Shown here in pieces: positions 318-16,792 of a DNA stretch of 36,734 nucleotides. Source of the DNA: a bacterium (GTDB taxonomy: Bacteria; UBP14; UBA6098; B30-G16). A program made the position numbers and the translations under genes. Positions within the stretch are counted from its first letter, which is position 1. Every line of letters starts with the position of its first letter. The notes beneath the pieces were generated by a model. The model ran no database searches, was not told where the DNA came from, and worked only from the letters and a program-made list of their open reading frames with translations. The DNA lies in contig JAGGZE010000044.1 of NCBI GenBank assembly GCA_021162205.1, positions 1 through 36,734 of the forward strand, read 5' to 3'.

Positions 318-1775
318 TTGAGGTTATTATCGAGCGCAATCGAATGGGATTGTCTCCGTTCCATTATAATCGTTTCGATTCTTGTGGGCGGCATATCCAT
401 CGGCAGTGCGAAAAGTGATATTTGCACTGCGAGGGATGGACTTTATTCCATCGACCCTTCTATTTTATGGGCTCAGGTCGAAGGATTGCTGGAACTTATG
501 CCTGTTCGAAATGAGAATGCAAATATTATGGGAATATTTGTTCCCGGTGAAAATTATCTCATTTCCGGTGGATTACTCGGCACAGCATATAGTTCGATTT
601 CGGGAAAAACTTACGATATAGTCATTATTTTAACTGGGACACAATCCGCACAGCCAGGTGTTTTTATTTCGAGTTCTACTGGATTTATCACTCCACTCGG
701 AGTTTTGTATTCCGATAAAAGACTTGTCGATGAAATCGTAAAATCCTGTCCATCGATTCGGCCTGTGAAAAGACTTTCATCCGATGATTTCTGGTATCAA
801 CTTCCATTTTTGCAATATGTTTTGGGTTCATCGAAAATTATAAATATTCAAATCGGTGAGTCGTCATTTTCAAACTTGAAATCGTTAGCCGATAAGTTCG
901 GTAGAATATTTTCGGGCAAAAGAGTTTTGATAGTCGGTGTCGGTGAACTCGCCGAAAATGAAAATTCTCTTATTGTCAATAAATTAGATAAAGTGGGAAT
1001 CGGTGAACTCGAAGCGATGGATGCAAAATCGTTATTCCTATCCTGCGAAAATGGCGATGCTCGATTTACGAGCAAGGAAGTTGCCGCTTTTACTGTATTG
1101 CTTGTCGCTAAGCTCGAAGCTAAACGAGGTAAAGTTCTCAAACATATAATAGCGACAGGATTTTCACAGGAAATTTACAAAGGAATGACCGCTATCGTTT
1201 GGTCGGGTAAAAAACGCATCGAGAGGAAGATGATAGAGCTCACTCCAGCCGAGGGAATGAAACTTTGGGACCTTTCTGCAGCTATAATTTCTTCAGGGAA
1301 AGTTGTCCGCGATATTCCGAGAAATCTTTATAGTTATAAGGCAGGTGTATTTATATCATTGATTTCCGGGAATAAATTGGTCGCTCAAACCGGTGATTTT
1401 TTTACAAATATGAATATTGTCGAAGCTGTAGCTAAATTCTCTAAAATTCTCGTATCGCCGAGTAGAATCCCGAGAATTGAACAATCGATGCTCAAAAATG
1501 CTGTATTGACCGTTAGTATCGCAAATTCTGTAGAGGGAATTTCGATGCCGAAAATCGATATGGGAATATATATTCGACGGGGTGAGAAAGTTGTCGTATC
1601 TATGCCGGGAGAATTCGCAGACTATTCACCGAAAGAACGGCTCGAGAAAACTTGTCTTAAAGCCGGGTTACCATCTAAAAGTTGGTGCAATCCCGAATGC
1701 GATGTCCAATTTTTTACAGTGCAATCTTTCTCGGGGAATTTGAAGGAGTTCGATGAACAAAGTATCAAAAAATAA
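318..1775 (+). CDS. exported MEMO-AMMECR1 fusion protein, degenerate
   Basis: A 485-residue protein with a TTG start behind AGGGGG and an N-terminal hydrophobic stretch (about residues 15-30) that looks like a signal peptide or anchor. Residues about 65-297 follow the MEMO1-like fold pattern: the TPLG motif (125-128), a QLPFLQ motif (161-166) and the order of hydrophobic strands. Residues about 305-475 follow AMMECR1, including GVFISL (343-348) and the C-terminal KAGLPS...W block (448-456). The metal-site residues of MEMO are gone: PHAGY is replaced by VPGENY (75-80), the histidines before QLPFLQ are absent, and the late cysteine is not seen. The function is unknown; it is probably a non-metal-binding envelope protein. 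Its end overlaps the next gene by 23 bases, which suggests translational coupling. No radical SAM partner of the AmmeMemoRadiSam set is in the window. Confidence 0.7.
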   Translation: MRLLSSAIEWDCLRSIIIVSILVGGISIGSAKSDICTARDGLYSIDPSILWAQVEGLLELMPVRNENANIMGIFVPGENYLISGGLLGTAYSSISGKTYDIVIILTGTQSAQPGVFISSSTGFITPLGVLYSDKRLVDEIVKSCPSIRPVKRLSSDDFWYQLPFLQYVLGSSKIINIQIGESSFSNLKSLADKFGRIFSGKRVLIVGVGELAENENSLIVNKLDKVGIGELEAMDAKSLFLSCENGDARFTSKEVAAFTVLLVAKLEAKRGKVLKHIIATGFSQEIYKGMTAIVWSGKKRIERKMIELTPAEGMKLWDLSAAIISSGKVVRDIPRNLYSYKAGVFISLISGNKLVAQTGDFFTNMNIVEAVAKFSKILVSPSRIPRIEQSMLKNAVLTVSIANSVEGISMPKIDMGIYIRRGEKVVVSMPGEFADYSPKERLEKTCLKAGLPSKSWCNPECDVQFFTVQSFSGNLKEFDEQSIKK

Positions 1776-3003
1776 TGTAATTTTACTTCTATTTATTCTT
1801 TCGATATTTATCGCTGGATGCGGTTCTGTTCCCAAAGCCGATATCGTGCAGAATACAGTTGCAAACGATAATATAGATTGTATCTGCTGCGGGGAAATCG
1901 TTCCCGACCAGGCATTATTCTGGGCATTGGTGAATAAGGGTGTTTCACCTAAACTCGTGGAATCTTTCAAAAATCCATTATCGAAAGTTTTGGATATGCG
2001 CAAGATTTATCCCGGCGATAAATATAAACTCGTATATGGTCGATATGAAAATATTAAATCTTTCGAGCTTATTCGTTCACCATGGGAAAAATATGTGGTT
2101 TATTCGACAGATAGCGGATTGGTTGCAGAAAAGGACACTATCGCACTTACGAGAACGATTTTTTCTGCCGAGGGTATCGTGCATAATACATTATGGGGTT
2201 CGATGCGCAAAGAGGGAATCGAACCTGCGGCTATCGTGAATTTCACCGATGTTCTCGAATACGATTTCGATTTTGTAACCGATACTCGCGAGGGACATAA
2301 ATTTAGAATTATGTATGAAAAAATCTCATTTGGCGATTCTGTAATAAGTGTCGGTAAAATATTATTGGCGGAATATGGAACTTCCGATACTGTTCACACT
2401 GCGGTCTGGTATGTGGACCCCGATGGAAGAGATGGATATTTCGATTTGAAAGGCAATTCTATGCGGAAATCGATGCTGAAAACTCCACTGACATATCGTC
2501 GAATAAGTTCTCATTTCACATATCATAGATTTCATCCGATATTGAAAATTTATCGTCCGCATCTCGGCGTCGACTATGCTGCACCGAGTGGCACACCGAT
2601 TGTTGCATCTGGCAGTGGCACTATAATTTTTGCGGGCAAAAAAGGTGGATACGGAAATTTCATTCATATCAAGCATTCGAATGGAATCGAGACTATGTAT
2701 GGTCATCTTTCGAGATTTGCCAAAGGAATTAAAAAAGGTGTTAAAGTTAAGCGGGGCAGGTTAATCGGTTATGTGGGTTCGACAGGTCTTTCTACCGGTC
2801 CGCATCTCGATTATCGAATTAAAGTTCATGGGAAATTTGTCAATCCTGAAAAATATGCATTTCCCGCTGAACCACCGATTAAGAAAAAATATCGCAGTTC
2901 ATATATCGAATATGCGAAATCTGTTATAAATGGTGCTGAAATGCTTGCCAATGCCGATTCTGAGTATGTCGATAATAACGAAAATAATGGGGAAAATAAA
3001 TAA
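1753..3003 (+). CDS. M23 family endopeptidase lipoprotein (MepM-like)
   Basis: A 416-residue predicted lipoprotein: hydrophobic signal then lipobox IAGC with the cysteine near residue 23. AAGGAG at 1743-1748 precedes the ATG. The middle region (about 140-260) matches the MepM/YebA-type accessory domain (a second-domain motif DFDFVTDTREG and GKILLAE). The LytM/M23 domain spans about 262-385 with zinc ligands H270 and D274 (HLGVD) and H318 in YGHLS. The usual final HxH is HLD here (H351, D353), so one histidine is replaced by aspartate. The family hydrolyses peptide cross-links of murein. Activity is likely but not certain, because Asp can coordinate zinc and the rest of the site is intact. It is coupled to the MEMO-AMMECR1 gene upstream, pointing to a cell-wall role for that pair. 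Confidence 0.85.
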   Translation: MNKVSKNNVILLLFILSIFIAGCGSVPKADIVQNTVANDNIDCICCGEIVPDQALFWALVNKGVSPKLVESFKNPLSKVLDMRKIYPGDKYKLVYGRYENIKSFELIRSPWEKYVVYSTDSGLVAEKDTIALTRTIFSAEGIVHNTLWGSMRKEGIEPAAIVNFTDVLEYDFDFVTDTREGHKFRIMYEKISFGDSVISVGKILLAEYGTSDTVHTAVWYVDPDGRDGYFDLKGNSMRKSMLKTPLTYRRISSHFTYHRFHPILKIYRPHLGVDYAAPSGTPIVASGSGTIIFAGKKGGYGNFIHIKHSNGIETMYGHLSRFAKGIKKGVKVKRGRLIGYVGSTGLSTGPHLDYRIKVHGKFVNPEKYAFPAEPPIKKKYRSSYIEYAKSVINGAEMLANADSEYVDNNENNGENK

Positions 3004-3100: not shown

Positions 3101-6100
3101 ATGAGGAAAATTTTTATTTCGATGTTAATTTTTATCGGTGTAATTGCAATATTTGCGGATGACCCGCCGACACCGCTTTCTGCTGCATTGGTGAATCCAG
3201 GATATAGATATGCACCATCGGGAGCGATAGCATTACAGGTTTCACCCGCTTGCACACTGAGTAATCCAGCGGGGACTCATTATCAATTCAGACGGGCATC
3301 TATTCTGTCAGCGAGTATGGATACGATAACAACATCGCCGCTCGCACTGACGAGTTATACATTTTACGATGCCGCCGATGGCGAAATTTATGAATATTAT
3401 GTCCGAGCTATTTATGAGGATGATACATCGTTCTGGTCGGATTCACTTATTCTAACTCACGACCTCGAGCCGCCGGAACATATATCCTATCTCGTCGCTC
3501 AACATTGTTGTTCGGAAACAGATTGTGCAATCTATCTTACCTGGCAGAAAGTCGATGATTTCGCATCATCCATAAATGGCTCCGAGGTTCGCGGTTATGG
3601 TATTTATCGTTCTCCGACAACAGGCGGTATCGATATTAGTTTAGGATATATTACTGCTACTACACCCGGGATTGCATTTATTTCATCGGATGGCAGCGAG
3701 ATTTACAATTTTATCGATACAACGATTACTCCCGGCGAAACATATAGATATACTGTTGTTGCGTTCGATAGTGCAGGTTATCCTGTCGCTGGACTCGGTC
3801 ATTTTCAGCATTATGATAATCCGATTGTTTTTGCGAGTGCTGTCGGACCTGGTGTATGCAGTTTTCCATTAAATGCGGTTTTAGAAGCTGTTCCAAGAGT
3901 TATCGATGCTACGAGTCAACTCGTGCAAATCGATGCCAGGGCTGTTTGGTTGAAATGGTCGAGACTTTACCAGTTTATTCGTGAGGACATCGCCTGTGGA
4001 ACTATGGATACCACAAATTGGACAAATGTCCCATATTATACATGGTCGATTCGCGATTGCCATCGATATAATTTTTATGCGAGAATTCGCGACGATGAAA
4101 CAGCGGACACATCGGATTGGTTTATGCGTGGACCGATGCTTACCGACCGCTCTGGTCCGCAGGCAATAGATTCCACTGTTTCACACCCCGAGGGCAGTGA
4201 AATTCGCACTCATTTCTATATTCACGATGAATCCATTCTCGATTGCTTGACCGACGAATGTGGAACTCATTGCGGTATCGGTGTGATGCAATACAAACTT
4301 TATCGTGTCGATTTCGACAATCTCGATTCTTTCTTCCCTTATGACCCATCGGATACCGACCATCTTTTGTATGTGTATAATGTAAATGATACTTTCCAAA
4401 CCGATGTTGACCTTCTATTCCGCGACGATGGCACGATTCTTCCGATGGAGGACAACGAAACATATATGTATATTCTCGTGGCTTTCGACAGTCTCGGACA
4501 TTATAATTATTTCTCGAACAATATGGATACGGCGACATCCGATTTGGGAATAGTGGACCCGGAAATTTTGCCACTCGGCACCTGGTCATCGGGAGATTGC
4601 GTTACATTGCAAATTTTGGATACGAGTTATTGCGATTTCGATTCGATTTATATCGAACAATCGATAAGTGCCGATTTCACTGCGGGTGCTGTCAGTTATG
4701 GACCATATCAAGTTCACGATGCTGTGTTCTCGAACCCCGATGATGGCGATTGCAACGATTTGGATACTTTGACTTTCCAGATATGCGGTCTCGAGGAAGC
4801 GCAATATTATTTCAGAATTTATGCCACAGACCGCAATGGTAATGTATCGGAATATTCTAATATTGTGAATACGAGATTCGATAATACTCCGCCGACACCA
4901 GTTTCGATAGATTCGTTATATTCGCGGGCAGTTTGCACAGATGAGATGAAAATCACGATTTGGTGGTCCCCAGCAGACGATGCAGGTGTCGGTGTTCAAA
5001 AATATAATATCTATCGTTCGGATACGCCCGGTGTATTGGGTTCGCTCGTTGCCACTATCGACCATAATCCGTTTTTTACATATTATAGTTGGACAGACGA
5101 TTTGCCCAATTCTACGAACAATTTTAGGGATAATTACTATACTGTCGCATCTGTCGATAATTTCGATTTGGAAAATATTAGTGGAATTCAAAATACATTT
5201 GGCAGCGGAACTCCACCTTATTCCGCAAGAATAGATACTGTGTATCCCGAATTTATTTCTGGTGAAATGTATGTCGTTATCGAATGGAGCGACACTACGC
5301 CTTACGATTACGGCACGGGCGGAATCGGCAATGCCTATCGTGTAGAACATAGTGCCGATGAAAGTTGGCTTTGTATCGGCGACCCCGATATTATCGATAT
5401 CGAAGACCCTACCTACGAACATCGGTTAGTTCTTCCACGCTCGATTATAGTCGGTTCACCACATAGATTTTTCCATATTGCGACTATCGACCCGTGGGGC
5501 AATGAAAGCGCATATTCTGTTCCTTACGAATATACCGATTCGAGTTGGGCAGCGGATTCTATGGTCGTTCATCTTTATTACGGATGGAATATGGTTGCCT
5601 TGCCTGTTCTGCCGAGAAGTCTAAACTATCGCGATATATTCCCATCGGCACTTTCTGCTCCTCTAAGTTATAGTGCCGATTCGGGTATAGGATATTTCTC
5701 CGCCGATACTATGCAAATCGGATACGGATATTGGATTTATAGCCCGGGCGATATGGATATCGAGATTCTCGGCTATCATATTCCATATATAACTCGTGAC
5801 CTCACAAATCCAGGATATTATCTTGTCGGTGGAATTAGCGATACGACAGGATTTTCGGTAACTCCACATGGTTCTTTGTTGACGAGCGATTTACTTTGGC
5901 ACAATCCTGCGATTGGAACTTATGAAATGGCATCGGAATTGATTCCTGGAAGAGGTTATTGGCTTTTTGTGAATGGCGCTTGCGAATACGATGTTCCTGG
6001 CGGTATGTTGAAAATTTATTCGGATATAGAACCTGAATGGGTCGGCAATATTACCGCTGGAAATCAAACTTTGATTTTCGGTATCGGCTCGGATAAACTC

Positions 6101-6637
6101 GATTTAATAATGCCACCGGCGCCACCCGAAAACGAAATTCCATCGTTGATTTCTGATGATAAAAGTTTCATTCGCGATATTTCTGAAAATAACGAATGGA
6201 CAGTGAAATTGCCCGAAAAGATGGAATTAAATTGGATTTCCAATGATATGCCAAAAGGTTTAATTCTTATCGCCGATAATCGCACAATCGATATGAATTC
6301 GGTCGATAAAATCGAATTGCCCGCTGGCGAATATAAAATTGTGCTGAAAAATTCGGTTCCCGATAAATTTGAGGTTTCGGCTCATCCAAATCCATTTAAT
6401 TTTAGCACATCGATTAAAATTTCCGCGCCTACCGACAACGATGCATCGATTGAGATTTATTCTATGGATGGCAAACAAGTAAAGACATTGTGGCATGGAA
6501 AATTAAATTCTGGCGAGCATACTTATATTTGGAATGGCGTGAACAATAATGGTGTGCAGATGCCTGCTGGAATTTATTTTGTGAAAACTGTTTTTGGAAA
6601 TAATGTATCGAATTTGAGGATTTTATTCATTAAATAG
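3101..6637 (+). CDS. large exported FN3-type surface protein with Por-type sorting domain
   Basis: A 1178-residue protein with a signal peptide ending near residue 20 (IAIFADDPP) and an AAGGGGG ribosome site. It consists of successive beta-rich fibronectin III-like segments rich in Asp, Tyr and paired Cys. Between them recur phrases such as YNIYRSDTPG and YGIYRSPTTG, typical of FN3 domains of multidomain bacterial surface proteins. A distinct region at about 829-975 starts with WNMVALPV and contains two GYWxx units; its family is unknown. The last 85 or so residues form a Por secretion (T9SS type A-like) C-terminal domain: PNPFNF near 1096, IEIYSMDGK, WNGVNNNG and PAGIYFV. The protein is probably secreted and attached to the surface. 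The closest secretion partner in the window is the PorV-like protein at 11408. The ligand or substrate is unknown. Confidence 0.8.
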   Translation: MRKIFISMLIFIGVIAIFADDPPTPLSAALVNPGYRYAPSGAIALQVSPACTLSNPAGTHYQFRRASILSASMDTITTSPLALTSYTFYDAADGEIYEYYVRAIYEDDTSFWSDSLILTHDLEPPEHISYLVAQHCCSETDCAIYLTWQKVDDFASSINGSEVRGYGIYRSPTTGGIDISLGYITATTPGIAFISSDGSEIYNFIDTTITPGETYRYTVVAFDSAGYPVAGLGHFQHYDNPIVFASAVGPGVCSFPLNAVLEAVPRVIDATSQLVQIDARAVWLKWSRLYQFIREDIACGTMDTTNWTNVPYYTWSIRDCHRYNFYARIRDDETADTSDWFMRGPMLTDRSGPQAIDSTVSHPEGSEIRTHFYIHDESILDCLTDECGTHCGIGVMQYKLYRVDFDNLDSFFPYDPSDTDHLLYVYNVNDTFQTDVDLLFRDDGTILPMEDNETYMYILVAFDSLGHYNYFSNNMDTATSDLGIVDPEILPLGTWSSGDCVTLQILDTSYCDFDSIYIEQSISADFTAGAVSYGPYQVHDAVFSNPDDGDCNDLDTLTFQICGLEEAQYYFRIYATDRNGNVSEYSNIVNTRFDNTPPTPVSIDSLYSRAVCTDEMKITIWWSPADDAGVGVQKYNIYRSDTPGVLGSLVATIDHNPFFTYYSWTDDLPNSTNNFRDNYYTVASVDNFDLENISGIQNTFGSGTPPYSARIDTVYPEFISGEMYVVIEWSDTTPYDYGTGGIGNAYRVEHSADESWLCIGDPDIIDIEDPTYEHRLVLPRSIIVGSPHRFFHIATIDPWGNESAYSVPYEYTDSSWAADSMVVHLYYGWNMVALPVLPRSLNYRDIFPSALSAPLSYSADSGIGYFSADTMQIGYGYWIYSPGDMDIEILGYHIPYITRDLTNPGYYLVGGISDTTGFSVTPHGSLLTSDLLWHNPAIGTYEMASELIPGRGYWLFVNGACEYDVPGGMLKIYSDIEPEWVGNITAGNQTLIFGIGSDKLDLIMPPAPPENEIPSLISDDKSFIRDISENNEWTVKLPEKMELNWISNDMPKGLILIADNRTIDMNSVDKIELPAGEYKIVLKNSVPDKFEVSAHPNPFNFSTSIKISAPTDNDASIEIYSMDGKQVKTLWHGKLNSGEHTYIWNGVNNNGVQMPAGIYFVKTVFGNNVSNLRILFIK

Positions 6638-6684
6638 CAAAAAATGAAATTTATATAATAGAAAATATAAAAAGGAGTTAAAAT

Positions 6685-9600
6685 ATGAAGCGACTTGGAA
6701 TTATAACAATAATGGCATTTTGGGTGATTTTGGTTTTCGCTCAGGGCGCACCGACATTGGAACCGCTCAATGAATTCACAGGAGGACATACCTGCCAGTT
6801 GAACTGGACATTGCCGGGTGGGACAGAACCTTATGTCTACCACATTCAGGTTTTTCGAGTCGATTCCGGTGAAACCGAATTTCCAGATTCTCTCGACGAT
6901 ATGTATTCTGATTCTATTTTCTCTATTTTTCCGATACCATTGACATCTGTTCCTGAAAATAGTTTCACCGTCGGATTGGATTCCACAAGCACTCTCGCCG
7001 ATGACCCTCTTGTCGATGGAGCGAGATATTGCTATCGAATTCGATACAAGTATGAACCTACTCCTGGCGATTATCTTTTCTCCGATTGGTCGAATGTGGT
7101 CTGTTCGACTCAGGATAATTCTCCACCCGTAGTCGGTGTGGATTCGCTTTGGATTTGGACGAATACGCCGACAGTTGCAGTGAATTGCTCATTATACGAT
7201 GATATTTCAAATCGAATAGTCGGGGCGAAACTCTATGTAAGAACTGATTCGATATCGCCATGGGAATTCTATTCGGAGCGAGATGTCTCTGGAACAGATA
7301 CTGTGGATATAGATTTCACATTTGCTCCCGACAGCGATGGCTATTATGAATTTTATATCGTAGGTATCGATGGTTTCGGCAATGAAACATCGCTATTCGA
7401 TGGAATGACTCCTGTTCCCTGTCATACCTGGACAAGATTCGATACGCAGCAACCCGAGGCATCTGTTGAGCCCGATGATTTCGACGAGTATTATACAACT
7501 CGTTCGATAGAAATGCCGTTCATCGCATCGGATACTTACAGCGGAGTAAAAGAAGTGCAGATATATTATAGGCGAGATTCGGGTTCAGCAACACTTTACG
7601 ATACTCGAATTTTCGAAGGCGAAATAGATATTTCAGAATTGGATACTTTTAATGTCGCAAACGATGGAGATTACGAAATTTATCTTATGGCGGTGGATTC
7701 TGCGGACAATATCGAATTATCGACAATAACAGAAGTTCAATTCTATATCGACACGAATTCTCCCGAATTCGCTGCAACCGATGCAGTCGATACCACGACA
7801 ATTTCACATCGTTACGATGTTCCAGCGGAATCGGGTTATAGCAACGATACGACAATTTTCGTAACTCCGACCGATGCTGTGGATTTACCTCCCGATGGCG
7901 ATGTCTATGTATCGACTATCGAAAGCGTGTATGTCGCTGAAAGTGAAGCATTCGGTGTCAATCTTCAGGTATTTCCATATTTTGATGGAGCACATTACGA
8001 ATATTCTATGACCGATGGCGATAGCGCGAGGAATATATATGTTAAGCTCGAGGATGTTGCAGGCAATTTTTCGATTGTTAATTCGCAGTCGATTTATCTC
8101 GATACCGATGCACCGACTATACGCAGTATCGAAATTTACGATATCGATGCCTCAATTTCCACCGATACCACTGATAATGTGCAGGTTAAGGTTCATATCG
8201 ACCCAGACCCCGATAGTTCGCCATTCTATAAAGTTTTTCTAACACAGGACTCCACAGAATTGAATAATATTCCAGCCGATGGATGGCGGGATATCGCCGA
8301 TACGTTGCTTTTTACATTCGATGGTCTTGTCGAAAGCGGATGGGTATACACTTATGCAGTGCTTAAAGATTCCGCTGGAAATGTATCCAATGCTGTCTAT
8401 GATTCGATTTACTACAATGCAAGTCCATTAAAATACATTCATTTAATTTCACTGCGAGATTTCGATGGTCCCGATACGACTGGAACATATACCGATACGA
8501 TTGCTATCGAGGTAACTCTTACTTATGGAAGGGACATCGATTCGATATCGATTTGGGATGATGGCGCAGGTCCGTCGTTTTATGCAGTAATTACACCTAC
8601 TGGAGCGGAAACAACTGTTACTATCGACCACGAATTTTCATCTGGCGATGGTGTTCGATGGATTTATATTCAGGGTAAAAGCATTGTCGATGCTATTCCG
8701 ACAGATGAGGAATCTTTAAGTATTATACTCGATACGAGAAAACCGATTTTGCCATCCATCGTTGTCGGGGATGCATCGACAGGATTCGATTTAACTGATA
8801 CATCGGAGATTTCCGATTCGGCATATACGAACAATCCTCTTGTCGATGTTGATTTCAATAGTTCTTATGACCCGACCTCTCCTATCGGTTCGGGAATATA
8901 TCATTTGAAACTAATTTCATCGGGAAGCGAAGTGGATACCGAATATACATCGACGATAACATTCGCACTTCCAGATACCGATGCTGTTCGTTTTGTGAAT
9001 GGATATGTTCAGGATTCGGCAGGAAACTGGTCCGACCCGTTTATTCATCAGATTACACTCGATAGATATCGTCCGACGATAATATCGGTGGTTCTTCAGG
9101 ATAGTGCTGCCGGTGATGAGGATTATACGAGTGGTTTGAAAGTTCGAGTTGTTACTGTCGCAGATGATGGTTCTATGGGCAATCCCGCATATATCGCATT
9201 TTTCGAGGACCCTGACCTATGGGCTCAAAATCTCTACGACCTATGGCAACCGTATAATAGCGAACTTTACTATACATTCGATAATCCCGATACGGGAACG
9301 AAAATTCTTTATATCGCTGTTAAGGACCGAGCGGGAAATATCAGTCTTATGACAAGCGACGATATTTTCTATCGGACATCGATTGTATGCAATTTTGCCC
9401 TTTACAATGTCATTCGCGGCACAAGCCATACGGTTTATACAAATTCACCCACAGTAGGTGTTCAGTTTAGTCCACTCGGGACACCGCCCGCTTATTATTT
9501 CTTGAACGAGGATTCGACTGCCGATTTCGATTGGATAACTTATCCATCGACAGGGATGACTACATTTACGATTTCCGCCGATGAGGGTCAAAAAGTCGTC

Positions 9601-11259
9601 TATGGATGGCTTCGCTCGGTTTCGGATATTATTTCAGCGAGAGCATCCGCAACGATTATTCTCGATGAAACTCAACCAGATTTGCCATACAGTTTCTCGA
9701 TTTGGGATACGACAAGTAGCGAGACCTGGCCCACTACATTTAAGGCACATATGGGCTGGTCGAATGAATTGTATGTATATGGTTCTATCCCCGAGGCAGA
9801 CGATACACTTTCGGGTGTCGAATCGCTGCATTTTCTTGGACCTTTCGAGGATGACCTTTGGGCATCGAGACCGCATACCGCTGTCGATGGCGGAATTATG
9901 GTGACTTATCCTAATGATAGCGTCGAACTTATAATCGATGGCACCGATGGCAGTTTCGATATCACAGGTGGAGCGATGGATGGTGCTGGAAACTGGAACG
10001 ATGTAACAGTTAATGCCGGATACGATACTATTGCGCCGACTTTGGCTATGATTCCATTTACTCACGACGACCCGACTACATTGCCATCTATTATTCCGTT
10101 GTCTATTACCGATAATCATCTTTGGAAAGTATGTTTCAAAATAAACAGTCCCGATACGATTTTCTGTGCGGAATATCGTGAGGAATGGGGAACTTATCCC
10201 GATTTCGATGTCGATTTCCCGATTGCGGATTCACTTTCACCCGATACGCTTTATTTCATCGAAATTGTAGCGGTCGATTCCGCTGGAAATCCGAGTAATG
10301 TGATTACATGGGTTCCTGGAAAATTGGAATATTTTGTTGTGGACCCGCTGGATACTTTTGATAGCGAATTCACGGGGACCGATACTGTGATTACGATTGT
10401 CGATGCCGATATTGCACCCAATTTTATGCGGTTTGCCGAGGATTCATCCAATCTTATGGATATGGACTGGATACCGTTCGAGCGAACTCATACTTTCCCT
10501 TTGAGCAATGCTAGAAATGAAATGAAATATGTATATGCTCAGTTCAAATTGGATGAATATGAAACACCCGTGTTGGTCGATACGATTTTCTTGGATACAA
10601 TTCCACCGACAGTGGTTCGTGTCGATGCTTTCGATCCGGAAACTAACGACCCGAACTGGTCGAGTTCACAGGATGTAAAAATTGTGGCAACGAGTCCAGA
10701 CGATACTCCACCCGGTGTGGTTTATGCGTTTAAAATTTCCGAGTCTCCGAATTTCGATTATCACACTACGATTGTTCTGATGGATGAATATTTTTCTGGA
10801 ATATACACGGTCGCCGATGTTCCATATCAACCGACAACCGACGACCCACAGGAACTTTGGGATGTTTTAATGGCTGGTGCAAGAATGCTCTATGTTCAGG
10901 TGCTCGATAGAGCGGAGAATCCAACTCCGACTAAAACTACATCGATTGTCGTAGATTGGGATCCAGCCGAGGTTATCAATTTCCCGAACCCGTTCAATCC
11001 CGATGAGCGTGAGACATATATCAGAATTAAGGCGAAAAACACAGGTGTATCTGTGGATATAAATATTTACGATATGTTCGGAAATCCCGTGTGGAATACA
11101 AGTTATACATTGAAAGCGGATTCCCGTGAAGCCGATATCGCATGGGATGGCACAAATTCCAATGGCGATATAGTCGGCAATGGCGGATATATTTGTGTAG
11201 TCGATTTCGGTGATAGATTAATCAAGCGAAAAATTGCCGTATGGAAAGGCAGTGATTAG
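6685..11259 (+). CDS. giant Ig-repeat surface protein with FlgD-like C-terminal domain
   Basis: A 1524-residue exported protein (signal MKRLGIITIMAFWVILVFAQ) with AAAAGGAG before the ATG. It is built from repeated bacterial Ig-like domains. Hinge motifs of the type x-[IL]-D-T-x-x-P recur at about residues 251, 353, 470, 681, 791, 991, 1111 and 1301, and D-x-AGN-x-S turns recur within the units. The C-terminal 92 residues are a FlgD-like Ig domain (FPNPFNP near 1432, INIYDMFGNPVW, AWDGTNSNG, GGYICVV), the type often used as a sorting or attachment signal in FCB lineages. It may be an adhesin or a structural filament of the envelope. It lies directly downstream of another large surface protein and upstream of the PorV-like gene, so a substrate relationship is plausible but inferred. 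Confidence 0.8.
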   Translation: MKRLGIITIMAFWVILVFAQGAPTLEPLNEFTGGHTCQLNWTLPGGTEPYVYHIQVFRVDSGETEFPDSLDDMYSDSIFSIFPIPLTSVPENSFTVGLDSTSTLADDPLVDGARYCYRIRYKYEPTPGDYLFSDWSNVVCSTQDNSPPVVGVDSLWIWTNTPTVAVNCSLYDDISNRIVGAKLYVRTDSISPWEFYSERDVSGTDTVDIDFTFAPDSDGYYEFYIVGIDGFGNETSLFDGMTPVPCHTWTRFDTQQPEASVEPDDFDEYYTTRSIEMPFIASDTYSGVKEVQIYYRRDSGSATLYDTRIFEGEIDISELDTFNVANDGDYEIYLMAVDSADNIELSTITEVQFYIDTNSPEFAATDAVDTTTISHRYDVPAESGYSNDTTIFVTPTDAVDLPPDGDVYVSTIESVYVAESEAFGVNLQVFPYFDGAHYEYSMTDGDSARNIYVKLEDVAGNFSIVNSQSIYLDTDAPTIRSIEIYDIDASISTDTTDNVQVKVHIDPDPDSSPFYKVFLTQDSTELNNIPADGWRDIADTLLFTFDGLVESGWVYTYAVLKDSAGNVSNAVYDSIYYNASPLKYIHLISLRDFDGPDTTGTYTDTIAIEVTLTYGRDIDSISIWDDGAGPSFYAVITPTGAETTVTIDHEFSSGDGVRWIYIQGKSIVDAIPTDEESLSIILDTRKPILPSIVVGDASTGFDLTDTSEISDSAYTNNPLVDVDFNSSYDPTSPIGSGIYHLKLISSGSEVDTEYTSTITFALPDTDAVRFVNGYVQDSAGNWSDPFIHQITLDRYRPTIISVVLQDSAAGDEDYTSGLKVRVVTVADDGSMGNPAYIAFFEDPDLWAQNLYDLWQPYNSELYYTFDNPDTGTKILYIAVKDRAGNISLMTSDDIFYRTSIVCNFALYNVIRGTSHTVYTNSPTVGVQFSPLGTPPAYYFLNEDSTADFDWITYPSTGMTTFTISADEGQKVVYGWLRSVSDIISARASATIILDETQPDLPYSFSIWDTTSSETWPTTFKAHMGWSNELYVYGSIPEADDTLSGVESLHFLGPFEDDLWASRPHTAVDGGIMVTYPNDSVELIIDGTDGSFDITGGAMDGAGNWNDVTVNAGYDTIAPTLAMIPFTHDDPTTLPSIIPLSITDNHLWKVCFKINSPDTIFCAEYREEWGTYPDFDVDFPIADSLSPDTLYFIEIVAVDSAGNPSNVITWVPGKLEYFVVDPLDTFDSEFTGTDTVITIVDADIAPNFMRFAEDSSNLMDMDWIPFERTHTFPLSNARNEMKYVYAQFKLDEYETPVLVDTIFLDTIPPTVVRVDAFDPETNDPNWSSSQDVKIVATSPDDTPPGVVYAFKISESPNFDYHTTIVLMDEYFSGIYTVADVPYQPTTDDPQELWDVLMAGARMLYVQVLDRAENPTPTKTTSIVVDWDPAEVINFPNPFNPDERETYIRIKAKNTGVSVDINIYDMFGNPVWNTSYTLKADSREADIAWDGTNSNGDIVGNGGYICVVDFGDRLIKRKIAVWKGSD

Positions 11260-11343
11260 TTATTAGTATCGAGTGTTAAGTGTTGAGTTATAAAAATCGA
11301 GCAGCAGAATATTCGTGTGTTTTTGGGTATGCGAAGTGTTAAT

Positions 11344-11375
11344 TTTGCATTTTGACTTGATAATTGATAGTTTTG
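11344..11375 (+). promoter_or_regulatory. possible Bacteroidota-type promoter before the envelope operon
   Basis: TTTG (11344-11347), 20 bases, then TAGTTTTG (11368-11375) fits the TTTG-N19/20-TANNTTTG pattern known from Bacteroidota. It would leave a leader of about 25 bases before the ATG at 11408, enough for the AAAGGGGG ribosome site at 11392-11399. A TTGACT at 11352 is an alternative -35. The DNA is very AT-rich, so a chance match is quite possible. Confidence 0.3.
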
Positions 11376-11407
11376 AATTGAATATCAAATAAAAGGGGGC
11401 ATCACCT

Positions 11408-13201
11408 ATGAGGTGGATTCGAGTATTAACTACGATAGTAATTTTAGTGGGATTTTCAGCGTTATTCGCACAATTCGGACAGGCGGGAGATTTTCTTCGG
11501 TTCGGCTCTAATGCACGCTCACTCGGTATGGGTGGAGCATATACTATGCTGGTCAGAAATGCCGATGCACTTTTGTATAATCCCGCAGGATTAGCGAATA
11601 CCGAACGATGGGAACTTTCGTTGACTCACGCTCAACTGTTTATGGATTCTCGATATGAATTTCTTTCATTTGCCTATCCAATCGATTTGCGAAGTGCTGC
11701 TGGAATCGCTATCGCCGATATCGGTGTTTCAAATTTCGATGGCAGAGACCAGTTTGGAACATCCACAAACACTTTTGCTATGCACAATCTCGGTGTTATT
11801 GCAGGTTATGGAAGATGGATAATGCAGAGGAAATTTCGAGTCGGCGGTTCTGCAAAATTTATAATGACATCGATGGACGATAATTCCGCTATGGGTTTCG
11901 GTGGTGTCGATATCGGTGTTATAACAAAGGATGTATTCAGAAAATTCAGATTCGGTCTCGCAGTTCAAAATCTTGCCGCACTCGATGTCGCCGGCGATAA
12001 ACTTCCGATGACTATTCGCGGCAGTGTCGGTTTTCGCGCGTTGCGGAATCTTTATCTGCTCGCCGATGTCGATATGGTCGGCAGCGCATTTAAGCCCAAA
12101 GTCGGTGCGGAATATAAATTGAATAGATATGTAACACTTCGCGCTGGATACAATATGACCGAAATCACCGCAGGTCTCGGATTGGCGATGGAGAGATTGA
12201 TAAGTTCACTTCGAGGAATGGGACATCCGCTGTTAGATTACAGTGCTGGTATGATGAATCCGCTTGGCAACGATTTCGCTCGTGTTTCATTGACTTTGCG
12301 TGGAGAGGAGAAAACTCCTCCGCCACCACCACCGAAAGTCTCTATCTGCGACCATCTCAGTGAATATGAAGGTTCGTTAGAAAAGGATGGACTCATCGGC
12401 GCGAGAGCTAATGTGCTTTTCGGATATTGCAATTTCATATATGAGAGTGTCGATGCGGATTTGAAAACCGAGCCGAATCTAAAATCCGCTTACGATTATT
12501 TCCACGAAGCTTATGCCGGAAAATTCGGAAGCAATTGGACACAATCTATTATGACTCTCGAGGGCGCAAGCGAGGTATTTAACCAGCGTATTCATTATAT
12601 GTTCGCAGAATCGAAGATGAACAAAGAGCCGATTTCCGAGGAGACTAAGAAACTCGTTCAGGATTTGATTTTCGTCGGCGGTGATAGCACGCGATACGAC
12701 CCCAGACTTCAATACGATTTGGCTTATACTTATGAGATGCTCGGATACCTCGATAGTGCGAAAGGATTATATGGCAAGCTTGCAAATAGAGATGAACTCA
12801 AAGACCCGGTTCATCCGCTTTCGATGTTCAGACTCGCTTATCTTTTACGGGAATCCGACCCCGATAGTGCGATAGCATTATTGGATAAATTAACGAGGAT
12901 TTTCCCATGGGGTTTTTACGATGAACAGGGTGAGCGGATTTCCTATCCTATGTTCCCGAAATATAAGGATAATATGCTTGCCGATGATGCACTACTTCTG
13001 ATGGGTGATATTTATGCCAACAAGGGTGGGCCGGAAAATAATCGGAAGGCATTGATGGCATATTTGGATGTATTATATTTCTATTCCGATGCGGAAAATA
13101 GTGTTTTGAGAAATGCAGCAGAAAGAGCCGCAAATGCTTATGAAACACTTGGAATGACAGATGAAGCTCAACTTATGCGTCAACGCGGTGGGAATCTTTA
13201 A
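11408..13201 (+). CDS. PorV/PorQ-like outer-membrane barrel fused to a TPR domain
   Basis: A 597-residue protein. A signal peptide (about 1-22) is followed by the PorV-family opening GDFLRFGSNARSLGMGGAY and YNPAGLAN, then beta-barrel strands to about residue 300. A hinge of six prolines near 304-310 joins it to an alpha-helical C-terminal half (about 313-597) with TPR-like pairs such as YDLAYTYEMLGYLDSAKGLY and a final AANAYETLGMTDEAQLM. PorV proteins are outer-membrane shuttles of the type 9 secretion system or related exporters. Most family members are about 300-400 residues, so the TPR half is an addition, likely in the periplasm to hold a partner. It is first in the block that leads to the ExbB/ExbD genes: the stop at 13199-13201 is 14 bases from the next likely start. 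Confidence 0.75.
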   Translation: MRWIRVLTTIVILVGFSALFAQFGQAGDFLRFGSNARSLGMGGAYTMLVRNADALLYNPAGLANTERWELSLTHAQLFMDSRYEFLSFAYPIDLRSAAGIAIADIGVSNFDGRDQFGTSTNTFAMHNLGVIAGYGRWIMQRKFRVGGSAKFIMTSMDDNSAMGFGGVDIGVITKDVFRKFRFGLAVQNLAALDVAGDKLPMTIRGSVGFRALRNLYLLADVDMVGSAFKPKVGAEYKLNRYVTLRAGYNMTEITAGLGLAMERLISSLRGMGHPLLDYSAGMMNPLGNDFARVSLTLRGEEKTPPPPPPKVSICDHLSEYEGSLEKDGLIGARANVLFGYCNFIYESVDADLKTEPNLKSAYDYFHEAYAGKFGSNWTQSIMTLEGASEVFNQRIHYMFAESKMNKEPISEETKKLVQDLIFVGGDSTRYDPRLQYDLAYTYEMLGYLDSAKGLYGKLANRDELKDPVHPLSMFRLAYLLRESDPDSAIALLDKLTRIFPWGFYDEQGERISYPMFPKYKDNMLADDALLLMGDIYANKGGPENNRKALMAYLDVLYFYSDAENSVLRNAAERAANAYETLGMTDEAQLMRQRGGNL

Positions 13202-13215
13202 CTTTGGAGTTTATT

Positions 13216-13755
13216 GTGCATAAACTCATTTTAATGGTATGTATCTTGTTCTTTGTAATATTTGTTCGTGGCATTGAAAATGAAGATTCATTGTGGATTC
13301 ATATCGAGAATGTTAAACCCGATATCAATAAAGCTGATAAGGTGGAATTTTTGATTCAATGGTCGATATACGATAGTCCATTCGAGGATAGCGCTTATGG
13401 CGATTGGTATCTTGTCGAAAATGAGAATCATATGTTTTTGATTCAATGTTCTGCCGACAGCGAATTTGAAAAATTAATTTATTCCGATAGCACCGATGCA
13501 AATAATATCGTATTCGATGGACTCGATATCGATAGAGAATATTTTTTAAGAGTGAAAATACTAAATTCGAAAAATCCGATGAAATCTGATGTAGCATCGG
13601 GCGGATATTTTACGAGGTATGCACGGGCAAGGCAGACAAGAAGAGATGCGGAAACTGATAAATTTTATATCGTAGTTGGGATTTCTACTATTTTAATAAT
13701 TTTAGGATTTGGGATAATGATATTTTATTTGATTAGACAAAAGTCGAAAACCTAA
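13216..13755 (+). CDS. membrane-anchored periplasmic FN3-like protein
   Basis: About 179 residues. I prefer the GTG at 13216 because GGAG (13206-13209) sits six bases before it. A TTG at 13204 would add four residues but has no ribosome site. The layout is: signal or N-terminal anchor (about 1-17), one FN3-like beta domain, a basic stretch (RYARARQTRRD) and a C-terminal transmembrane helix near residues 149-172. The topology suggests a periplasmic domain held in the inner membrane. The domain resembles the N-terminal domain of the adjacent ExbB-like protein: DSLW versus DSVW, then I/A-W, D/E-W, a DSxF turn and a final R-V motif. The two genes probably arose by domain sharing or duplication and may pair. 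No named family recognised. Confidence 0.65.
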   Translation: MHKLILMVCILFFVIFVRGIENEDSLWIHIENVKPDINKADKVEFLIQWSIYDSPFEDSAYGDWYLVENENHMFLIQCSADSEFEKLIYSDSTDANNIVFDGLDIDREYFLRVKILNSKNPMKSDVASGGYFTRYARARQTRRDAETDKFYIVVGISTILIILGFGIMIFYLIRQKSKT

Positions 13756-13769
13756 ACAAAGGAGGAACG

Positions 13770-15110
13770 ATGCGCAGGGGTTGGTACATGCTGGTATTTC
13801 TGATGATTTTTTTGGTGCCGATGTGTATTAGAGCAGAGGCAACGAAAATCGCGGATATGGATTCTGTATGGGTAAATATTGTATCTGCTGATGAAGCTAA
13901 GGATGAACAGGGTAATTTGCAGGTAACAATCGCTTGGAAAGTATTTACACGAAAATACAACAAGCGCAAGGGAAGTTATTCTGAGTGGCAGGAGATAAAA
14001 GCACCCGAGGGATTCACATTTGGTTCTGAAGTAACTACTGATTCAGCATTTTCTAATGTTATCGAATCACATGAACTTCAAGAAATGAACTATACTTTCC
14101 ATAATCTTAATTTTGCTCAGCAATATTGGTGGAGAGTTAGATTGATTTCGCCTGAATGTCAATCTAAATGGGATTTCGCCGAAGGAATACAATATAAACA
14201 CGAGGTTCAAATTACGAAAAAAAGAGGATTAATCTCAGGTTATTTCCACTTTGTCAAAAGTGGCGGTCTTGTTTTTATGATTCCAATGCATATCTTGCTT
14301 TTATTTGGAATTATCACATGGATTTTAATTTGGCGAAGATTGTGGTTTGCAAATATTTTCCCACCGAATAAGCCATCGTTTGGGTATCGTATTCTTCCTG
14401 TGGACCGCACCGGTAAAACCGAGATTCACAGTGATAAAGGGAATATTTTCTTGAGAGAGGTTGCTAAATATTGGTCGAAGGCTATGGAAGCTATGTCGGT
14501 CGGTCCCGAACATTTTGATAACCCCGATGAATATATTAAAGCAGATAGGCAAACGCAGGAAGAAATAGAGAAGAAACTCTGGCTCGAAATGGGATTGCCA
14601 AATGTGGAAAAAGCGATAGAAATTTGCCGAAATGGTGTTCCAGGAGTCAAACTTCCCAAAAAACCACTCGAATATTCTACTGTTAGAGTTTTACTAGCAG
14701 CACTTGAAAATCATAGGTCTAATAGAAACAATTTCTGGGCATCACAAGAAATGGACAGAGCAGCAGAAAATACAGTGCTTAAAGAAATCGATGGTCTTAA
14801 AGGCTGGGAAACAACAGGACTTTGGGCAGTCGGTTCTATCGAGCCGATGATGGGGCTATTTGGAACTGTTGTTGGTATTCGAGGTTCATTCGGTAAAATT
14901 CAGGAAACTATCGCTATGAATCCTAATGCCAAAATCGCACAAATTGTCCCAGCACTCGCAGGTGGTATCTATGTTGCACTTATTACAACAATCGTCGGTT
15001 TGACATTCGGTATCCCAATGATGCTTACGCATTATTATTATCGTGGCAAGGTCGATTGGATTTTTGGGAAATGGGAAGAAATTATGACAGATATATTAAA
15101 TGAAGCATAA
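13770..15110 (+). CDS. MotA/TolQ/ExbB-type channel protein with periplasmic FN3 domain
   Basis: A 446-residue protein preceded by AAAGGAGGA. Residues 1-22 are a signal-like segment and about 24-150 a periplasmic FN3-like domain. TM1 is about 166-189 (GGLVFMIPMHILLL...), followed by a cytoplasmic region rich in charged helices (about 190-345). The conserved pair TM2 (about 349-371, IEPMMGLFGTVVGI with T366) and TM3 (about 397-421, ALITTIVGLTFGIPMML with T406/T407) follows. The TM2-TM3 signature and threonines are those of the proton-conducting ExbB/TolQ/MotA family, which works with ExbD/TolR to turn proton flow into force. Ordinary family members are about 200-250 residues; the added N-terminal domain nearly doubles this one. 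Two ExbD genes follow at 15 and 12 bases. The partner and load are unknown. Confidence 0.88.
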   Translation: MRRGWYMLVFLMIFLVPMCIRAEATKIADMDSVWVNIVSADEAKDEQGNLQVTIAWKVFTRKYNKRKGSYSEWQEIKAPEGFTFGSEVTTDSAFSNVIESHELQEMNYTFHNLNFAQQYWWRVRLISPECQSKWDFAEGIQYKHEVQITKKRGLISGYFHFVKSGGLVFMIPMHILLLFGIITWILIWRRLWFANIFPPNKPSFGYRILPVDRTGKTEIHSDKGNIFLREVAKYWSKAMEAMSVGPEHFDNPDEYIKADRQTQEEIEKKLWLEMGLPNVEKAIEICRNGVPGVKLPKKPLEYSTVRVLLAALENHRSNRNNFWASQEMDRAAENTVLKEIDGLKGWETTGLWAVGSIEPMMGLFGTVVGIRGSFGKIQETIAMNPNAKIAQIVPALAGGIYVALITTIVGLTFGIPMMLTHYYYRGKVDWIFGKWEEIMTDILNEA

Positions 15111-15125
15111 AGGAGGTGAACCTCG

Positions 15126-15662
15126 ATGAAACATAGAGCAGAGGAACTTCCAAAGGCCGCATGGACATCGTTGATAGATATTATCTTTCAACTATTGATA
15201 TTTTTTATGGTTACTATGGCAGTTGGAACGATGCAACAACAAGCGAATGCTGCGGTTGCAGGCGCAGAAAAGAAAAATTTACCCAAACTTCCTCCTGTAG
15301 AGAAACTGGCAACTCCTCAAGAATTTAGTTCGGGATTTCTTCTGCACATCAATAAAATCAATGAGAAACCATTTAATGGCGAACTTGGAGCTTATATACT
15401 CGATTCTGATGTCGCAACTGTGGATGATGCTAAGAAGGATTCTACAGGAAAGCACGGTCCATATACTCTGAAAAAGGCGAAAGGTATTCTTGAAAAGAGA
15501 ATCGAGAATATATTTTTTACAACTGGTGAACCTCCACGACTTGAAATTCGTGCTCATAAAGACACACCTTTCGGTTATATTCTCGGTATTATGGAGTTTT
15601 GCGACCAAGATTCGATAGAAGTTGTAGGTTTCAGGTTCGCGAATGTTGTTAAACAATCATAA
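15126..15662 (+). CDS. ExbD/TolR-type protein 1
   Basis: A 178-residue protein with an excellent ribosome site (AAAGGAGGTGA). The short cytoplasmic N-terminus leads into one transmembrane helix carrying SLIDIIFQLLIFFMVT, with the conserved membrane aspartate at D18 that carries the proton in ExbD/TolR. The periplasmic part (about 35-178) is longer than in typical ExbD (about 140 residues in total) and ends with the family-like strand and helix pattern RLEIRAHKDTPFGYILGIM. It pairs with the ExbB-like protein just upstream and with a second ExbD-like protein downstream. Duplicate ExbD genes with one ExbB occur in force-generating systems such as the Myxococcus Agl motor. Confidence 0.87.
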   Translation: MKHRAEELPKAAWTSLIDIIFQLLIFFMVTMAVGTMQQQANAAVAGAEKKNLPKLPPVEKLATPQEFSSGFLLHINKINEKPFNGELGAYILDSDVATVDDAKKDSTGKHGPYTLKKAKGILEKRIENIFFTTGEPPRLEIRAHKDTPFGYILGIMEFCDQDSIEVVGFRFANVVKQS

Positions 15663-15674
15663 GGGAGGTAAAAT

Positions 15675-16247
15675 ATGAGATTACGAGCAGAACCCCTCCC
15701 TGAAACAGAATTAACATCGATGGTGGACATAATATTCCAGTTGATGATATTTTTTCTCGTTACTATGTCCGTTATGCCATCGGTTAAATCTGCACCTCAG
15801 GTCGAGGGAATGATGAACTTGCCAACACCCAAAAAAGGTGATTCGGAAGCATCTGTTCTTGTTCAGTTCCATAGAACACCCGCGGGCGGTATCGACTATT
15901 ATGTTTTTCAGGGAAACGATAAGTCCGCTGAATTTTATCAGTGGTTCAAGGACAAGCGAAGTGTGATTAAATCTTCTGGTGCATATCCTGCATTTAGAAA
16001 TATTTCTTCCAATAAATATCAGCTTGTTTATAATGAAAAGACCTTGAAAGGTTTTTTGATGGAGATTCGAGATAATGACCCAGCAGTAATATTGCGGGCT
16101 CCAAGTAATCTTCCTTATGGTGATGTTGTCAAAGTAACGGGATTTATGCATACTTTAGGAATAAGCAAAATTGCTTGGGTTAAAGGAACACTGGCGAATT
16201 TGAATATCGAAATTAAAAAGGGCAGAGCAAGGAGGCGGGGAGCATGA
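15675..16247 (+). CDS. ExbD/TolR-type protein 2
   Basis: A 190-residue paralogue of the protein just upstream: MRLRAEPLPE versus MKHRAEELPK at the start, SMVDIIFQLMIFFLVT in the single transmembrane helix and the same critical aspartate (D18). The periplasmic domain ends with PAVILRAPSNLPYGDVV and a strand-helix pattern typical of ExbD. The tail is very basic (KKGRARRRGA). GGGAGG lies before the ATG. The stop overlaps the start of the TonB-like lipoprotein as ATGA (16244-16247), so translation is coupled. The two periplasmic domains differ enough to suggest a heteromeric pair rather than a spare copy. Confidence 0.87.
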   Translation: MRLRAEPLPETELTSMVDIIFQLMIFFLVTMSVMPSVKSAPQVEGMMNLPTPKKGDSEASVLVQFHRTPAGGIDYYVFQGNDKSAEFYQWFKDKRSVIKSSGAYPAFRNISSNKYQLVYNEKTLKGFLMEIRDNDPAVILRAPSNLPYGDVVKVTGFMHTLGISKIAWVKGTLANLNIEIKKGRARRRGA

Positions 16248-16792
16248 GATATAAAAAACTAATATTCGCATTTCTCTTGCTCGCTGGGATAATTTCTATT
16301 ATCGGATGTGGCGATAAAAGTGGTGAATCGTATATTAACTTACCGGAAGGTCCCAAAATACTTTTCAGAGGTGGAATCGGTAAAATTACTATTCGATATG
16401 TGCCTCCACCGGATCCGATATTTAGAATTTCAAATGCAATGGAATATGTCGAATTTCCTTACATTAAGGATAATTATGGTATTCCTGATAAACCGCTGAT
16501 TATCGATTATACGGTTGAAAATTCTGTTATTGCTCCGGTCGTTATTCAAAGAACGAGTATCCCGCAGTTTAATGATTATATTTTAAGAATTCTTCAGAGC
16601 TGGACTTATACCCGTTTTGGCAAAGGACCGATGCGAATTTCCGTGGATGTCGCAAAAAAGAGAATTTCCGTGGATGTATCGAATATTCGTCTTGCAGAAC
16701 AAGAACCTGGACGACCTATGCCAAAGATGGGAAATATGAGAGAATTGGTAAAGCAAATGGGCTTTACTGTTGTTACTGGGAATTTGTATTAG
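16244..16792 (+). CDS. lipoprotein with TonB/TolA-like C-terminal domain
   Basis: A 182-residue predicted lipoprotein: signal with IIGC, cysteine C22, followed by Gly-Asp. There is a short proline stretch (VPPPDP, about 44-49). Residues about 65-145 follow the TonB C-terminal pattern: a FPYIKDNYGI helix entry, DYTVENSVIAPVVIQ strands, then FNDYILRILQSWTY in the place of the usual D-x-A-x-x-A-x-x-x-W-x-F helix. TonB and TolA carry ExbB/ExbD force to outer-membrane partners but are normally held by a transmembrane helix. Here the anchor would be a lipid. Gly after the cysteine gives no inner-membrane retention signal by the enterobacterial rule, so outer-membrane location is possible. The gene overlaps exbD-like gene 2 by four bases. 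The domain call rests on pattern, not a search. Confidence 0.6.
   Translation: MRYKKLIFAFLLLAGIISIIGCGDKSGESYINLPEGPKILFRGGIGKITIRYVPPPDPIFRISNAMEYVEFPYIKDNYGIPDKPLIIDYTVENSVIAPVVIQRTSIPQFNDYILRILQSWTYTRFGKGPMRISVDVAKKRISVDVSNIRLAEQEPGRPMPKMGNMRELVKQMGFTVVTGNLY

Follow-up and report, generated by a model that had tools for sequence, protein, structure and literature searches.

A MEMO-AMMECR1 fusion without the MEMO metal residues, apparently exported and encoded in overlap with an M23 peptidase gene in a UBP14-like bacterium

Introduction

MEMO and AMMECR1 proteins range from bacteria to humans, and the function of AMMECR1, like that of MEMO, is unsettled. PMC11081632 states that what MEMO primarily does at the molecular level is unknown and reports that MEMO1 ligates iron or copper via H49, H81, and C244; the title of a paper cited there (Qiu et al. 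2008) describes a vestigial active site in MEMO1 that binds a peptide. In the open-licence literature, no paper on bacterial MEMO together with M23 was found. Here we describe a MEMO-AMMECR1 fusion lacking the MEMO metal residues (hereafter the stripped copy) and its overlapping M23 peptidase gene, both located in the window, i.e., the whole 36,734-nt stretch of DNA analyzed, which is an entire contig (C76) from a genome of a UBP14-like class within an uncultured phylum of bacteria.

Results

The gene pair and its domains are as follows.

318..1775, + strand: MEMO-AMMECR1 fusion, apparently exported, that lacks the MEMO metal residues (485 aa; start codon TTG)
339..395, + strand: N-terminal hydrophobic helix at residues 8-26, resembling a signal peptide or signal anchor (AlphaFold helix, orthologue N-termini)
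444..1145, + strand: MEMO domain, residues 43-276 (Pfam Memo E 6.4e-15, fold match)
1320..1730, + strand: AMMECR1 domain, residues 335-471 (Pfam AMMECR1 E 2.2e-10, fold match)
1753..3003, + strand: ShyA/NMB0315/Csd3-type M23 peptidase, putative (Pfam Peptidase_M23 E 4.4e-32; domain layout, fold)
2557..2847, + strand: M23 catalytic domain (HxxxD (H270/D274), H318, and H351 kept; PHLD, D353)

The TTG start of the first gene is preceded by GGGGG, and its 3' end overlaps the M23 gene (416 aa) by 23 nt (1753-1775), exactly as a sequence-only reading of this DNA had reported. The product scored 55.5 bits against Memo (PF01875, curated cut-off 27) and 40.8 bits against AMMECR1 (PF01871, curated cut-off 25), while the NCBIfam AMMECR1 model (TIGR04335, AmmeMemoSam_A) gave 28.8 bits, below its cut-off of 99. 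The AlphaFold model (mean pLDDT 88.5, 37 aligned sequences) is well packed, and the structural comparison that the same reading had called for returned human MEMO1 as the first match (7l5c/7kq8, TM(target) 0.79; E 1.9e-17 for 7l5c) and AMMECR1-family structures next (archaeal 1vaj, TM 0.67, E 6e-12), with extradiol dioxygenases ranking after both, consistent with a MEMO/LigB-like fold. The product is a real and conserved variant of a known family, beyond a chance fusion.

The signal-like N-terminus noted earlier corresponds to the hydrophobic helix at residues 8-26 and recurs in orthologues, and on this evidence the stripped protein appears to be exported into the envelope, where its location would be periplasmic. 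The accompanying view that MEMO and AMMECR1 proteins normally reside in the cytoplasm holds only in part, since many MEMO-AMMECR1 fusions in other bacteria carry signal or lipoprotein N-termini together with an intact active site, and the canonical copy of this very genome is signal-bearing; export therefore probably preceded residue loss. The broader statement that every such fusion is exported was rejected, being true in a mixed sample while about half of the fusions in a Zixibacteriota survey have no signal.

We then located the ligand columns with a canonical-MEMO profile, in which H49, H81, and C244 correspond to the PHAGY, PSH, and CGGGP motifs. The loss of the metal residues that had been claimed was borne out, with G77 (nt 546), Q109 (nt 642), and T251 (nt 1068) standing at H49, H81, and C244, respectively; in addition, E210 and E213 replace the near-site residues D189 and H192, and VAQTG (within nt 1371-1397) replaces RGCIG, the AMMECR1 motif that the aligned canonical fusions carry. 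H81, EH, D189, H192, and C244 are absent from all 15 cluster copies, and H49 from 14 of them, G014 having VPHAPY. The canonical UBP14 paralogues and most Zixibacteriota copies keep the site residues, apart from single substitutions. Among 13 aligned stripped copies, the invariant columns are M, P, G, T, F, L, and one Cys, with no new invariant His, Asp, or Glu; the Cys (C446) lies in the AMMECR1 domain and is shared with canonical copies. Two relatives with a stripped MEMO site (G008 and G011) still carry RGCIG, which indicates that loss of the MEMO site preceded loss of the AMMECR1 motif in their lineage.

Conservation of the pair, for which a survey had been proposed, was assessed in 98 genomes, 17 of which, including that of the window, belong to the UBP14-like class. 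The order stripped copy, M23, FN3 proteins was found in 15 of the 17, as far as contigs or fetched stretches reach, and the two genomes without the stripped pair are 59% and 74% complete. Neither of the outcomes that the sequence-only reading had named as counting against it, a missing structural match and a missing pair in relatives, was observed. The junction between the stripped and M23 genes mostly consists of short overlaps or short gaps, and the stripped copy is intact in the 15 genomes, which span four families. In a MEMO-domain tree, one branch (97/94; 96% of bootstrap trees) set the 15 stripped copies apart, and nine canonical copies from UBP14 formed a separate clade (100/98); long branches obscure the attachment point of the stripped group. 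Orthologues share 20-44% identity with the window copy for the stripped protein and 41-64% for M23. In two close pairs, dN/dS of the stripped copy was 0.28 and 0.20, which marks it as a maintained gene. The values were 0.14 and 0.15 for M23, with 0.06 for a pair of canonical copies; the stripped copy is under constraint, yet looser than either.

The M23 protein, whose active-site roles we took from PMC9662197, has the HxxxD motif and not HxH, as its third zinc ligand is Asp (D353 in PHLD, nt 2797-2814) instead of His. HxD in place of HxH was present in all 14 UBP14 M23 copies examined and in 10 of 12 Zixibacteriota survey copies, the other two having HLE and HLH, so that the position is acidic in 14/14 and 11/12 copies; the HLD counts come from the survey only, as one pattern of the public search with an M23 alignment selects for HLD. 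Such retention suggests use rather than decay, and the acidic ligand seems to be a stable M23 variant. With one canonical zinc ligand replaced, endopeptidase activity is nevertheless best called putative. The AlphaFold model of this M23 protein was weak in the catalytic domain (pLDDT <50 in parts). The earlier description of this protein as a lipoprotein fits the window copy, which has a FIAGC lipobox (nt 1807-1821), and applies to this genome alone, the lipobox being absent from the orthologues. A second M23 protein in the window (29689-31827, 712 aa) is distant from the first and has the usual PHLHFE motif.

Downstream of the pair, the following genes run in the same direction.

3101..6637, + strand: FN3/FlgD-Ig protein whose C-terminus is a Por-type sorting tail (next gene in the conserved cluster)
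6685..11259, + strand: another large surface protein, its tail FlgD-Ig/CHU_C-like (follows in the conserved cluster)
11408..13201, + strand: PorV/PorQ-family outer-membrane protein with TPR (NCBIfam PorV_fam E 4.5e-28)
13770..16247, + strand: MotA/TolQ/ExbB-like gene and two ExbD/TolR-like genes

The start of a PorV/PorQ-family gene is also next in line in the relative G005. The same-strand run at 3101-16792, with its FN3/sorting-tail, PorV/PorQ, MotA/TolQ/ExbB, and ExbD/TolR genes, resembles components of a type IX-like secretion system or of an energised envelope system.

At least 9 of the 15 stripped-copy genomes also encode a canonical MEMO-AMMECR1 copy whose N-terminus is of the signal or lipoprotein type. 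In the window genome, the AmmeMemoRadiSam set comprises the signal-bearing canonical fusion (L005:1474-3039, contig C15) and two AmmeMemoSam_rS genes (contigs C84 and C72), neither of which adjoins the stripped copy. The lipobox Cys of the canonical fusion is replaced (VGYAK vs SGCAK in the relatives G005 and G007). The radical SAM protein on C84 (L056, L148:3-1172) has an N-terminal hydrophobic segment, MKNRIAKISLVLISAFILFLIFAPARSS, which the second copy (L057) is without; two in-frame stops in one radical SAM match were an artefact, as the profile had run past the gene end. Elsewhere, a 1721-aa protein with a MEMO-like stretch (L044:8825-13990) directly adjoins a signal-bearing MEMO-AMMECR1 fusion, and genes just upstream of such fusions at L045 and L050 have Tat-like N-termini (RREF, RREA, RRTF), which suggests that they may encode further exported AmmeMemo-linked proteins.

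To place the pair in a wider context, public genomes were searched with the M23 alignment and the neighbouring genes were read. In Zixibacteriota, signal-bearing MEMO-AMMECR1 fusions with site residues kept lie 5' of the same M23 at L065-L070, MEMO and AMMECR1 adjoin it as separate genes at L071, and MEMO alone does so at L073, L077, and L079 and, divergently oriented, at L072. For M23 homologues of other phyla, no MEMO neighbour was detected save one weak opposite-strand match (L124). In a survey of 59 Zixibacteriota-class genomes, a same-strand M23 gene lay no more than 400 nt away at 11 of 52 examined MEMO loci; the majority of MEMO genes are not beside M23. A signal was present in 7/8 M23-adjacent survey fusions compared with 12/31 elsewhere (p 0.02, uncorrected for phylogeny), and in 13/14 M23-adjacent fusions when all Zixibacteriota fusions were counted against 12/31 others (p 0.0009, uncorrected for shared ancestry). 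Since several stand-alone M23-adjacent MEMO proteins have no signal (L071, L073, L077, L079, and L219), adjacency alone does not mean that MEMO and M23 meet. As M23-adjacent MEMO in Zixibacteriota often keeps its residues, the MEMO-M23 pairing looks older than the residue loss, and because MEMO and M23 adjoin there without FN3 genes, the M23 link also looks older than the FN3 link.

Discussion

The tight gene coupling, export signal, kept fold, and lost chemistry of the stripped protein point to an envelope binding protein, probably a non-catalytic helper rather than an enzyme. Our preferred reading, which we hold tentatively, is that it is a periplasmic or outer-envelope pseudoenzyme acting as a partner of the co-encoded M23 enzyme and supporting wall opening for surface proteins. 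The M23 protein is the preferred partner because it is the tightest and apparently the oldest neighbour, with the FN3/sorting-tail proteins as the next candidates. An exported MEMO-AMMECR1 fusion would have been encoded beside an M23 murein endopeptidase gene in an ancestor; the metal site would have been lost in the class ancestor while a second, canonical exported copy was retained elsewhere in the genome, leaving fold and cleft as a binding module that would most likely serve as a docking, activating, or localising subunit of the M23 enzyme, whose opening of the wall may serve the adjacent surface proteins and the PorV/TolQR-like machinery. Contact with M23, the direction of regulation, and the link to surface-protein assembly are all what we infer from these features, and regulation is offered as a hypothesis.

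A doubtful alternative makes the stripped protein a chaperone or assembly subunit of the surface-protein/secretion cluster, with M23 a mere neighbour that makes wall holes for the same machine. The MEMO-like, M23, FN3, FN3 block is conserved in the class and is followed in this genome by PorV-family and TolQR-like genes, as this alternative would have it, but the Zixibacteriota loci, where MEMO and M23 adjoin without FN3 genes, speak against it. It is also unlikely that the protein is a ligand-sensing or substrate-presenting pseudoenzyme of an exported AmmeMemo pathway, working with its canonical paralogue instead of M23: it is common in other families for an active paralogue to form a heteromer with an inactive one, and both the coexisting signal-bearing copies and the two radical SAM genes fit such a role, yet neither the canonical copy nor the radical SAM genes of the window genome belong to the cluster, being found on different contigs.

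That the stripped copy is a decaying, functionless duplicate kept in place by the gene overlap we regard as very improbable; its faster evolution relative to M23 and its lost catalytic residues would agree with decay, but an intact gene in 15 genomes of four families, a well-packed predicted fold, and dN/dS values of 0.20-0.28 indicate purifying selection. There is just as little to recommend a metalloenzyme whose metal site has moved, although the retained cleft fold would allow for one, since the aligned stripped copies offer no new invariant His, Asp, or Glu.

Returning to the preferred reading of an M23 partner, a further and unlikely extension is that MEMO-AMMECR1 proteins of this region of the bacterial tree originally had an envelope role connected with murein remodelling, from which this class made one copy a dedicated non-catalytic M23 regulator. 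If so, MEMO-AMMECR1 function could become approachable through the bacterial cell wall. An exported, metal-site-stripped copy beside a wall peptidase also separates binding from catalysis and hints at where partners may be sought.

Compared with MEMO1 (PF01875, TIGR04336 AmmeMemoSam_B), the window protein shares sequence and fold but is without the metal-binding residues and has an N-terminal hydrophobic segment and a fused AMMECR1 domain; with AMMECR1 (PF01871, TIGR04335) it likewise shares sequence and fold but is without RGCIG and scores below the TIGR04335 cut-off. The exported fusions of its own genome (L005) and of Zixibacteriota (L065-L070) match it in domain order and signal-bearing N-terminus, are of similar length, and differ in having the MEMO site residues and RGCIG. 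The window M23 has the domain layout and fold of the ShyA, NMB0315, and Csd3 endopeptidases, with HxD where those have HxH. As for EnvC and NlpD, to which the sequence-only reading had likened a possible regulator of the peptidase, the comparison proves loose: these are degenerate M23 (LytM) domains that activate amidases, whereas the candidate regulator here has the unrelated MEMO and AMMECR1 folds and the window M23 keeps most of its catalytic residues, so that the likeness is confined to the proposed role, that of an envelope protein with no catalysis of its own that acts on a wall hydrolase.
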